Below, one piece after another: positions 14,476 through 35,497 of a stretch of DNA of 44,967 nucleotides. The DNA is from a virus: the IMG/VR virus record IMGVR_UViG_3300017770_000030, positions 1 through 44,967 of that record. The stretch is one strand, 5' to 3'. How positions within the stretch are numbered: position 1 is the stretch's first letter; each line of letters starts with the position of its first letter. A program made the translations under genes and the position numbers. The notes beneath the pieces were generated by a model, which ran no database searches, was not told where the DNA came from, and saw only the letters and a list, made by a program, of their open reading frames with translations.

Positions 14476-15516
14476 TCAAGCTGCACGCAGTTCAATCGCA
14501 CATGCAGGGTTCAGAGTACCTGCACCCATAGCCAAGCGACCAACGATGATGTCACCCTGGTACATGGTCTTAACGTCAGCACCTGTGGTCTGGACAGAAG
14601 GACCAATACCTTCAACAACAGCAGCAGCATCCTTCATGTAGATAAGTCCACAGGATGTACGGAAGTCACCGGAGTAGTCATTGTTCTCACCAGCAACACG
14701 ATCAATAGAACCAGAGTTGGAACCAGTCACCATGAATGGGAGGTTGTTAGAACGCTTGATAGAAATACCAGCGATCTCATATAGGCCATCACCTGAGTTC
14801 AAGTTACCTTGGCTGTTACCAAAGTCACGGTTCAGGATGTTGCTATCAACTTGAGAGACGAGTGCATAATACTGTCGTGGAGAAAGTACAGCAGTACGTC
14901 CATCACGAGGAATATTTTTTTCGTCCAAAATTGAAGCAGCTTCGAAGAAGGCGTCAACCAAAGACTGTGCATTGTACTGGTTGTTAGCACCAATGTTGAT
15001 GATAGAACCACCGGGCTCAGGGCCAGGAGCAGCAGTCACAGGATGTGCTTCACGTGCAGCAAGTGCAATAGTACGGAAGACTTTCTTGTCATATGCTTCG
15101 GCAAGAGCGTGTCCAATTTTCTTGGAGATCTCAGACCTAAGTGAGTAATGAGCAAGTGTCTCATCAAGGTCATAAATGAAAGCTGAACTAATCAGCAGGT
15201 CATCCATGATGATGGTCTTTTCAGCCACTGGAGGATCACCACTACCAAGAATCGGAGTTCCAGGTGTGTGGTATGAAGCATCCATACGACCAGTAAAGAT
15301 GAACTGCATCGACTTTCCATTACGGAGAGTACGATTTTGTACAGTACCTTTAGCGATACATGCTGATTCATAAGCTTTGAACATCTCACCTGAAAATAGT
15401 TTCAGATAAGTTGCGTACTTGCCAGTATCAAGGCCTCTATCGTAACCGGTAGACTTGGCGATAGAAGCGGGGTTCGAGTTTAGCGAACCAATTGGAGTAA
15501 TAGTAGCGTCAGCCAT
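14476..15516 (-). CDS. major capsid protein, gp10-like
   Basis: 346 residues, essentially the length of T7 gp10A (345). The HK97-fold capsid pattern is visible: N-terminal GLDTGKYATYLKLFSGEMFKAY, the central PPVAEKTIIMDDLLISSAFIYDLDE, the helix HALAEAYDKKVFRTIALAARE and the domain with RTAVLSPRQYYALVSQ. The ATG directly follows a T-run and lacks an obvious Shine-Dalgarno sequence. The 370-base leader upstream carries palindromes, a T-loop element and a 33-codon gene. It lies downstream of portal and scaffold as expected, but the hli-psbA moron cassette is inserted between scaffold and capsid. Confidence 0.95.
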   Translation of the reverse strand: MADATITPIGSLNSNPASIAKSTGYDRGLDTGKYATYLKLFSGEMFKAYESACIAKGTVQNRTLRNGKSMQFIFTGRMDASYHTPGTPILGSGDPPVAEKTIIMDDLLISSAFIYDLDETLAHYSLRSEISKKIGHALAEAYDKKVFRTIALAAREAHPVTAAPGPEPGGSIINIGANNQYNAQSLVDAFFEAASILDEKNIPRDGRTAVLSPRQYYALVSQVDSNILNRDFGNSQGNLNSGDGLYEIAGISIKRSNNLPFMVTGSNSGSIDRVAGENNDYSGDFRTSCGLIYMKDAAAVVEGIGPSVQTTGADVKTMYQGDIIVGRLAMGAGTLNPACAIELRAA

Positions 15517-15547
15517 TATATAAAAAAAGAGGTTTTGTTTACTTCCT

Positions 15548-15601
15548 CTTTGACGTCAAAGATATTCAATTATGTGTGGTCTATCCCACCGTCTAGACGG
15601 T
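15548..15601. promoter_or_regulatory. two perfect 14-bp palindromes upstream of the capsid gene
   Basis: CTTTGACGTCAAAG at 15548-15561 and ACCGTCTAGACGGT at 15588-15601 are both perfect inverted repeats, 26 bases apart, 32-85 bases before the capsid ATG. They could be operators for a dimeric protein or small RNA stems in the capsid leader. An AGAGG...CCTCT stem followed by seven T residues lies between them and the ATG. Confidence 0.5.
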
Positions 15602-15633
15602 CAGAGGTATCCGCGTACGGGCTCTAACCAATT

Positions 15634-15676
15634 GCTAAGGGAGGATTTGCACCTCCCAATTACAGAACTACTTAGC
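15634..15676 (-). ncRNA. T-loop hairpin element, copy 1 (capsid leader)
   Basis: On the minus strand: GCTAA, 14 unpaired bases, stem GGGAGG, loop TGCAAAT, stem CCTCCC, then TTAGC pairing back to GCTAA. The loop fits the T-loop pattern (U-G-N-R-A). The stop codon of the 33-residue gene lies inside the outer stem. The same architecture occurs at 17235-17275 and 35451-35491 with different stem sequence, which supports a structural rather than a coding constraint. Possible roles are mRNA processing, 3'-end protection or regulation of the next gene. Confidence 0.6.
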
Positions 15677-15773
15677 GGCTTTTAAGGTAAGCTACCCCGC
15701 GATACACAAGCTTCTGCTCTTTAAGAGCTTGGGCTTGCTCACGCACACGCTGACGAACTTCAACGTTTGGCAT
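15672..15773 (-). CDS. 33-residue protein with YRGVAY motif
   Basis: A tiny gene with a near-perfect Shine-Dalgarno sequence (AAGGAGG, 5 bases before ATG at 15773). The product is MPNVEVRQRVREQAQALKEQ followed by KLVYRGVAYLKSR. The C-terminal YRGVAY resembles the short DUF4278-type proteins common in cyanobacteria and their phages; function unknown. It sits between the psbA-linked 70-residue gene and the capsid gene, is preceded by a structured leader and ends inside T-loop element copy 1. Confidence 0.65.
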   Translation of the reverse strand: MPNVEVRQRVREQAQALKEQKLVYRGVAYLKSR

Positions 15774-15784
15774 AGTATCCTCCT

Positions 15785-15882
15785 TAGAGAATTGAGGGAC
15801 CCCGTTCCATGTCACCTCATGTCATGCGTCGTTTACCGAGATTGGTATCTTGTCCTGATCGACGGTATTCGATGAACGGACT
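15785..15882 (-). promoter_or_regulatory. candidate structured leader (riboswitch-like) of the 33-residue gene
   Basis: The about 100-base leader has no reading frame and carries compact blocks on the minus strand: CGTTCATC near 15873-15880, GACGCATGACATG near 15818-15830 and CATGGAACGGGG near 15800-15811. A CCCTC segment can pair with the GGAGG of the Shine-Dalgarno sequence, a usual expression platform. The CGTTCATC start and the tiny downstream peptide recall the glutamine-sensing glnA / Downstream-peptide RNA group of cyanobacteria and cyanophages, but the typical GGAAGUAGG block is not seen, so the class is uncertain. Confidence 0.4.
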
Positions 15883-16107: not shown

Positions 16108-17166
16108 TTATCCGATAGTAGGAGTTTTGTATGTAGCCAGATCAAGTGGGAAGTTATGAGCATTACGCTCATGCATTACTTCCATTCCAAGTCCTGCACG
16201 GTTAAGTATGTCAGCCCAAGTAGGGACAACACGGTTCCCGTTATCGACAATGGATTGATTAAAGTTGAAGCCGTTAAGATTGAAAGCCATAGTGCTAACA
16301 CCCAAGCTAGTAAACCAAATGCCAACAACAGGCCATGCAGCCAAGAAAAAGTGGAGGCTACGTGAGTTATTAAACGAAGCATATTGAAAGATCAGTCGTC
16401 CAAAGTATCCGTGAGCAGCGACAATATTATATGTCTCTTCTTCCTGTCCAAATTTATACCCATTGTTCTGAGATACATTCTCGGTTGTCTCCCTAACAAG
16501 GGAACTTGTGACAAGAGAACCATGCATAGCACTGAACAAAGACCCACCAAATACGCCGGCAACGCCAAGCATATGAAAAGGGTGCATAAGAATATTATGT
16601 TCAGCTTGGAAGACGAGCATGTAATTGAAGGTCCCGGAAATGCCAAGAGGCATTGCATCTGAAAAAGAACCTTGTCCAAAGGGGTACACCAAGAAGACAG
16701 CAGAGGCCGCAGCTACAGGTGCGGAGTAAGCAACGAAGATCCAGGGACGCATACCTAGCCTGTAGCTAAGTTCCCATTCGCGTCCCATGTAAGAGTAAAT
16801 ACCGAGCAAGAAGTGGAAGACAATGAGTTGGAATGGTCCACCGTTGTATAGCCATTCATCGAGACTGGCTGCTTCCCAGATGGGATAGAAGTGGAGTCCG
16901 ATGGCGTTGCTAGACGGGACAACTGCTCCCGATATAATGTTATTTCCGTAAAGGAGCGATCCTGCAACTGGTTCACGTATGCCATCAATATCAACAGGGG
17001 GAGCGGCTACGAAAGCCAGGACAAAACAAATAGTTGCGGCTAGTAATGTTGGAATCATTAGGACTCCAAACCAGCCTACGTATAGACGATTATTAGTGGA
17101 TGTCACCCACTCGCAGAAGGACTGCCAGTTATTTAGTTTTTGTGGTCTTGAAAGTACAGCGGTCAT
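16108..17166 (-). CDS. psbA: photosystem II D1 protein
   Basis: 352 residues. D1 is the photosystem II reaction-centre subunit that turns over fastest in light; phage copies keep electron flow going during infection. Numbering matches cellular D1 without gaps: H118, Y161, D170, H190, H198 and H215 are all present at canonical positions. Residue 130 is Glu (GREWELS), the form linked to high-light D1. The mature end is A344, followed by an eight-residue C-terminal extension (TYKTPTIG), shorter than the 16 residues usual in cyanobacteria. The gene lies in the virion block just before the capsid leader, as in other cyanopodoviruses, and a T-loop element lies in its leader. Confidence 0.97.
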
Positions 17167-17234
17167 TTAAGTAATAGTTCATGGTTGGGTATGTATAATT
17201 AAGTAAGACCATTTTAAAGACTTGGCTGTCTAGA

Positions 17235-17275
17235 GCTAAGGAAGGAATTGCACCTTCCACATGAATCTATTTAGC
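17235..17275 (-). ncRNA. T-loop hairpin element, copy 2 (psbA leader)
   Basis: Minus strand: GCTAA directly after the stop of the outer-membrane-like gene, 12 unpaired bases, stem GGAAGG, loop TGCAATT, stem CCTTCC, then TTAGC. It has the same plan as copy 1, with two base-pair changes in the inner stem that keep pairing (GGGAGG/CCTCCC against GGAAGG/CCTTCC). It lies 69 bases upstream of psbA. PhotoRC-type RNA motifs are known upstream of phage psbA; whether this is one of them could not be checked. Confidence 0.6.
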
Positions 17276-17620
17276 TTAGAAGGTGTACTTCAAACCTGCT
17301 TTAGTTCCGTAGTTATTGTCAGCTTCAGCAGTCAAAACTGATACCTCTCCATAGAGAGCTAGCCGTTCACTAAGAGGTGCACTAGCACCGACTTTACCTG
17401 AGAATTCCAGATCAGAATCTGCACCATCATTAAGGACTACTGCAGGTCCTCCTTGGATATACCAGTTATCACCTTCGTATCCAACGTGATTATCAATGAC
17501 AGTAGAGCCACCGTACTCACTACCTACGAAGCCAGCATTAGCTTCGACGTTTACAAAGGGTCCAGCTTGTGCGGCACCAGCAGCGCCGAGTAGGAGTGAA
17601 GCAATAATAAGAGTTTTCAT
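17276..17620 (-). CDS. outer-membrane beta-barrel-like secreted protein
   Basis: 114 residues. It has a clear signal peptide (MKTLIIASLLLGAAGAAQA, cleavage before GPF) followed by alternating hydrophobic strands (WYIQGGPAVVL, LEFSGKVGASAP, LALYGEVSVL, KAGLKYTF) and a C-terminal Phe, the signature of outer-membrane proteins. It is too short for a classical porin and may form a small barrel or oligomer. It sits between hli-linked small genes and psbA, in the moron cassette. A possible role is envelope change during infection; this is inference. Confidence 0.65.
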   Translation of the reverse strand: MKTLIIASLLLGAAGAAQAGPFVNVEANAGFVGSEYGGSTVIDNHVGYEGDNWYIQGGPAVVLNDGADSDLEFSGKVGASAPLSERLALYGEVSVLTAEADNNYGTKAGLKYTF

Positions 17621-35418: not shown

Positions 35419-35450
35419 GAATTAATGGCTACTCTCAGCGAGTAGCAATA

Positions 35451-35491
35451 GCTAGGCAGGAGAGTTGAACTCCTGCTTAATACCCACTAGC
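35451..35491 (-). ncRNA. T-loop hairpin element, copy 3 (early block)
   Basis: Minus strand: GCTAG, 10 unpaired bases, stem GCAGGAG, loop TTCAACT (an exact tRNA T-loop), stem CTCCTGC, then CTAGC. The outer pair extends by one A-T. It starts seven bases after the stop of the 58-residue gene. A second hairpin GCTACT/AGTAGC with a seven-base loop follows at 35427-35446, before the KTSC-like start. Two compensatory differences against copies 1 and 2 in both stems support the fold. Confidence 0.6.
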
Positions 35492-35497
35492 TGTAAA

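Follow-up and report, generated by a model that had tools for sequence, protein, structure and literature searches.

The stretch of DNA analyzed here (44,967 nucleotides (nt), IMG/VR record IMGVR_UViG_3300017770_000030, hereafter the window) comes from a T7-like cyanophage that is closest to Ashivirus and the P-SSP7-type phages. All of its relevant genes, including the major capsid gene and psbA, lie on the minus strand. A short element with an outer stem, an insertion on the 5′ side, an inner stem and a seven-base T-loop precedes each of these two genes, and a third copy lies between two small early-region genes (Table 1). The original prediction, made from the letters of the window, had placed three such structures on the minus strand; all are present, copies 2 and 3 each being one base pair (bp) longer than claimed. 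Copy 1 combines the outer stem GCUAA/UUAGC and the inner stem GGGAGG with the loop UGCAAAU; the corresponding parts are AGCUAA/UUAGCU, GGAAGG and UGCAAUU in copy 2, and AGCUAG/CUAGCU, GCAGGAG and UUCAACU in copy 3. A strict descriptor (Watson–Crick inner stem ≥6, outer stem ≥5, loop TKCAANT, insertion 8–16) recovered copies 1–3 and nothing else in the window, the plus strand included; 400 dinucleotide shuffles yielded no match at all. These elements are members of a larger RNA class in T7-like cyanophages.

The class was followed through 80 IMG/VR capsid loci (individual loci are cited by L numbers) and annotated phage records that include P-SSP7, P-SSP2, Syn5, S-TIP37, S-RIP1, S-RIP2, NATL1A-7, P-SSP10, S-B28, S-CBP3 and S-CBP4. 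T7 and the pelagiphage HTVC019P served as control genomes. When a looser descriptor was run on the first 82 related loci (1.01 Mb), 29 matches were found on the coding strand, 28 of them 5′ of the capsid gene, versus none on the opposite strand. Covariance models (R1, then R2) were seeded with seven copies of the same type, because MAFFT misaligns the outer stem in copies of mixed length, and were afterwards widened. They gave 22 matches across 16 genomes and 44 across 54 loci, and each match that was checked individually sat at a junction between genes, on the coding strand. Besides the sites 5′ of the capsid gene, there are sites 5′ of psbA (the window, L001, L004, L011, L012, L018, L021, L026 and L037) and at early-gene junctions, the latter comprising copy 3, P-SSP7 602 and 1007, S-SBP1 929 and 1325, S-TIP37 986 and 1441, P-SSP10 35282 and 35976, S-RIP2 39614, and NATL1A-7 23725. 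S-CBP3 has one R2 copy, at the capsid site. R2 missed copy 3, with its 7-bp inner stem and 10-nt insertion; this copy has the same anatomy as copies 1 and 2, and its downstream hairpin is of the same kind. There was no R2 match in the controls T7, HTVC019P and AP013543, nor in five host-type cyanobacterial genomes, in which only part of the candidates was scored and no positive control was used. The psbA gene itself was considered as the cause of the element and rejected, as just 2 of 80 viral psbA loci carry one.

Most copies are 37–50 nt long. As in tRNA, an "acceptor" stem (4–7 bp) is stacked directly on a T-arm with a 7-nt T-loop, for a total of 10–13 bp, and a 3′ spacer is absent in nearly all copies. 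There is no cloverleaf with an anticodon arm; at most, one small middle arm of 0–6 bp is present. The 5′ insertion brings in a D-loop-like GG or AG, often via this small third hairpin. The stacked acceptor stem and T-arm of the predicted minihelix were retained, but the additional arm and the GG or AG seen in many copies point to a mimic of the tRNA elbow and not just of a T-loop hairpin. Similarly, the loop rule T(T/G)CAANT describes the window copies, but is too narrow for their relatives, which use U(U/G)C(A/G)ANN.

The covariation that had been read from the three inner stems extends to the relatives. In an alignment of 50 copies, which was fitted to the structure so that the figures are somewhat inflated, standard pairs occupy 95.2% of the pair cells, compared to 68.8% after shuffling (about 95–96% with a 25-copy set included), 10 of the 12 pairs vary on both sides, with 158 two-sided cells against 42 expected by shuffling, and pairing falls to 41–58% when the partner is slid by 1–3 columns. 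The outer stems seen include GCUAA, GACUG, ACUGA, AGUGA, GUGAA, GCCGU, GGAAG and GGCAG, each with its complement, and the inner stem of copy 3 has a compensatory C–G to U–A change in its relative L183. No family in Rfam 15 matched the elements at gathering score. The covariance search of cyanophage genomes and Rfam that had been suggested as a check therefore yielded more compensatory copies and no named family. The class is, provisionally, apparently undescribed: literature searches found no earlier description, most subscription papers being outside their reach.

The base at T-loop position 55 is associated with the sequence of the insertion. Among 55 distinct parsed copies, an unpaired GG was found in the insertion of all 21 copies with UUC (U55) and of 3 of the 34 with UGC (G55), at least one of these three stemming from parsing ambiguity (Fisher p = 2e-12, or 1.5e-6 once the copies are clustered at 25% difference). 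In copies with a clear middle hairpin, the last two bases of the hairpin loop are mostly GG with U55 (UACAGG, UUAAGG, AAAGG) and AG with G55 (UAAAAG, UCAUAG, UUAAAG, UAAG). On a quick tree of the capsid proteins, the T55/G55 state changes 10 times, not all of which are separate mutations if whole modules move by recombination, and independent pairs on supported branches are concordant in up to six of six cases, with none discordant. An association of this kind would be expected from the 18–55 and 19–56 contacts of tRNA, with G19–C56 constant.

What adjoins each element was tabulated on exact coordinates. Past the acceptor-like stem comes one discriminator-like base, usually UU, and then a stem-loop, the type of which varies by site: the conserved leader at the capsid gene, a hairpin at psbA, and other hairpins at the early sites, where one almost identical to that of copy 3 sits behind the P-SSP7 element at 1007–1047. 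The proximity to a stop codon that was originally noted does hold at all three window copies: the TAA of a 33-amino-acid (aa) open reading frame (ORF) lies within the 5′ acceptor strand of copy 1, copy 2 adjoins a 114-aa ORF, and copy 3 starts ≈6 nt past a 58-aa ORF. The downstream relation is the more constant one, however, and the element, rather than being a property of the 3′ end of the upstream gene, marks the junction to the next. CCA is not encoded at the elements, which agrees with a substrate of RNase Z, and the junction geometry is as would be expected were RNase Z to create the downstream 5′ end. The capsid leader consists of a stem, a hairpin with a UACG-type loop, an invariant GA.A and then GUCUAGACGGUGGGAUAGACCAC; it is present in nearly all examined relatives and belongs to no Rfam family. 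The capsid mRNA is predicted to begin near 15632. Hairpins resembling this leader also occur before the capsid gene, without a T-loop element, on the minus strand of HTVC019P (L178:20010–20072, CCCCTTGCGAGGGACAA) and AP013543 (L179:23323–23450, CACTTACGAGTGACAA). A sigma-70 promoter or intrinsic terminator was sought at copies 1 and 2 and not found, and the Syn5-type phage promoter is absent from the window and from the Syn5 capsid element.

The slot occupied by the element can also hold a tRNA gene or a different hairpin, denoted iii. Among 94 genomes or loci, 92 have one of these three modules at the capsid site: 62 have the T-loop element (about ten of these labels were set by eye), 24 have hairpin iii and 6 have a tRNA; the other 2 are unclassed. 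The tRNAs are tRNA-Gly in the isolate NATL1A-7, where it is annotated in the phage's own record, tRNA-Trp in L067 and L080, tRNA-Asp in L019 and L057, and, in L072, a tRNA-like sequence whose anticodon arm is poor. At the psbA site, L034 has tRNA-Pro followed by the leader AGACAACCAAGTCTTTAAAATGGTC, the same as that behind the window element. Where a tRNA fills the slot, the leader begins straight after N73. All seven tRNA calls in the scanned cyanophage loci fall at the capsid or psbA site. The module class changes at least 19 times on the capsid tree, and different modules accompany identical capsid proteins. Hairpin iii consists of the loop CACCTCAGAGTCGGA on varying stems and is found at the capsid slot in SS120-1, S-RIP2, S-B28, P-SSP10, S-CBP4 and many contigs, and at the psbA slot in L033 and L041 (examples at L089:20926, L093:36721 and L095:16619, minus strand, and at L033:5000 and L041:136). 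Rfam gave no match to it in the scanned loci, and it was dropped as a T-loop former, as its loop sequence violates the rule in some members. Approximately 100–145 nt upstream of the capsid start, L079 and L082 have a tRNA-like acceptor, a D-like segment containing GG, and a T-arm, without an anticodon arm. L072 and L079 (and also L082) possibly represent intermediates between a tRNA and the short element.

Comparison of the sequences shows a covarying structure, an association of the elbow type, a fixed junction, and replacement by genuine tRNA genes that has recurred at two sites. The explanation that we favor, and consider probable, is that the element imitates the tRNA elbow, serves as punctuation in a long polycistronic phage RNA and is cut by the tRNA-maturation enzymes of the host. 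RNase Z would cut past the discriminator-like base, and RNase P possibly on the 5′ side. The cut would free a downstream mRNA (capsid, psbA or early gene) starting with UU and a stem-loop, while the upstream mRNA would keep a structured 3′ end. We infer that these two enzymes recognize and cut the element, that mRNA stability is affected, and that the leader hairpin is protective. The recruitment of tRNA-processing enzymes had been part of the original prediction, and the presence of genuine tRNA genes in the identical slot at two sites lends strong, though indirect, support to it. PMC10989914 lists both RNases as universal among cyanobacteria. Syn5 has just two phage promoters, at 4929 and 44797, neither of them near the capsid gene, and one promoter serves >37 kb (PMC3950665); thus, the capsid RNA arises within a very long transcript.

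Three results weigh against this explanation. Neither ARAGORN nor, up to an E-value of 10, the tRNA model of Rfam (RF00005) recognizes the elements. Minimal E. coli RNase P substrates require a 3′ CCA (PMC5723415), which these elements do not provide, making the 5′ cut by RNase P less certain than the 3′ cut by RNase Z. Finally, the element is replaced at both sites by hairpin iii, in which no tRNA features are evident; what the sites share may then be the need for a structured boundary, not for tRNA enzymes. If so, any of the modules would act as a stable block at the 3′ end, and a general endonuclease, RNase E, would cut the unpaired AUU that links the module to the leader hairpin. The linker is indeed short and U-rich, and RNase E increases in infected Prochlorococcus (PMC9692554), but at 2–4 nt the linker is very short for RNase E. 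Moreover, a plain hairpin would suffice for this purpose, which leaves the conserved T-loop, the link between U55 and GG, and the recruitment of whole tRNAs unexplained. We consider this alternative unlikely, while still the one to be taken most seriously.

The T-loop and elbow features, together with the overlap with the stop codon of the upstream ORF at some sites, would also suit a regulatory decoy, a mimic to which a tRNA-modifying enzyme, a synthetase or the ribosome binds and which governs how the neighboring genes are translated. However, the same anatomy precedes such unrelated genes as capsid, psbA and early genes, it lacks an anticodon arm and CCA, and it is interchangeable with real tRNAs of four specificities; a decoy is quite improbable. 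More improbable still is a signal at the DNA level, a phage promoter or transcription terminator, as the intergenic location might indicate, since it is the pairing that is under selection and not the sequence. That the elements are remnants of tRNA genes that served as integration sites or were picked up by chance, as integrases in some relatives and the coexistence of full tRNAs and armless forms at one site could suggest, can be practically dismissed. This is contradicted by the covariation, and single genomes have several copies whose stems are unrelated and which compensatory change maintains at fixed junctions across many genera.

A wider proposal, on which we are evenly divided, is that in cyanopodoviruses, which are lytic, tRNA genes, reduced mimics and hairpin iii are interchangeable signals for processing by the tRNA-maturation enzymes of the host and take the place of T7's RNase III sites, and that the tRNA genes in the slot are kept for mRNA cutting, not for translation. 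If the elbow mimic is indeed cleaved, tRNA punctuation of mRNA, known in mitochondria, would extend to marine phages of an abundant group. This would explain how a single promoter serving >37 kb gives separate capsid and psbA messages, and phages would have a new reason for carrying tRNA genes. Genome sequences suffice to locate the elements, the cut sites are predicted to within 1–2 nt, and infection systems exist for P-SSP7, Syn5 and NATL1A-7.

Table 1. Elements, leaders and neighboring genes in the window. E-values from the custom covariance model R2 are rough.
Feature	Position	Strand	Remarks
T-loop element, copy 1	15634–15676	−	5′ of capsid gene; R2 33.8 bits, E 1e-5
T-loop element, copy 2	17234–17276	−	5′ of psbA; R2 41.7 bits, E 5e-8
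T-loop element, copy 3	35450–35492	−	Between two small early-region genes
N73-like A, AUU, conserved capsid leader	15575–15633	−	Stem 15629–15599, then GUCUAGACGGUGGGAUAGACCAC
psbA leader hairpin AGAC-AGCCAA-GUCU	17218–17231	−	Directly 3′ of copy 2
Leader hairpin GCUACUC-GCUGA-GAGUAGC	35428–35446	−	After A-UU, directly 3′ of copy 3
Major capsid gene	14476–15516	−	Downstream of copy 1; PHROG 267, E 5e-74
psbA (photosystem II D1)	16108–17166	−	Downstream of copy 2; PHROG 182, E 2e-192
33-aa ORF, ending ...RGVAYLKSR	15672–15773	−	Upstream of copy 1; no PHROG match
Diverged Glutamine-II (Downstream-peptide) riboswitch-like element	15793–15881	−	Upstream of 33-aa ORF

The riboswitch-like element upstream of the 33-aa ORF scores 27 bits, compared to a gathering score of 33, while copies at the corresponding place in relatives score 37–47 bits (clearer in L036, L043, L058 and L080). 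It represents a separate neighbor of the Glutamine-II/Downstream-peptide type (RF01704), and is not homologous to the T-loop element. Because the ORF under this riboswitch stops inside the 5′ acceptor strand of copy 1, its translation could, speculatively, open the fold and tune the cut, a hint that capsid expression might be tuned by nutrients. Shortly before the capsid start, at 15540–15570 on the minus strand, there is a palindrome, TTTGACGTCAAA; the relatives (TCTGACGTCAGA, CTAAGCGCTTAG, TCTACGCGTAGA) differ in sequence, but stay palindromic.

Several known systems resemble the phage elements in part. The viral 3′ tRNA-like structures of the TYMV type are found at the 3′ termini of RNA viruses and end in CCA. 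They have in common with the phage elements that a virus mimics tRNA, but the latter are internal, occur in multiple copies in a DNA phage and have no encoded CCA. Minihelix model substrates of RNase P and RNase Z are laboratory constructs in which an acceptor stem and a T-arm are joined with a bulge. The phage elements likewise have a stacked acceptor stem and T-arm, with the rest of the tRNA shrunk to an insertion on the 5′ side, but they are natural and under covariation, whereas the minihelices are artificial. In T7, a member of the same phage family, RNase III cleaves at early-gene junctions and ahead of some late genes, and the structured ends protect the mRNAs. The junction positions are similar, but the T7 sites are RNase III hairpins instead of a T-loop architecture. 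The t-elements of plant mitochondria, at which RNase P and RNase Z cut and set mRNA ends, receive CCA yet stay uncharged (PMC11658184). In both t-elements and mitochondrial tRNA punctuation, tRNA-like structures are located at mRNA ends, and the phage elements, too, are tRNA-like structures at gene junctions. They differ in having no anticodon arm, in a length of mostly 37–50 nt, in belonging to a lytic phage, and in that cutting is only predicted. Their interchangeability with tRNA genes at two sites would be consistent with descent from such genes, without proving it. The t-elements are a direct precedent for the cutting proposed here.
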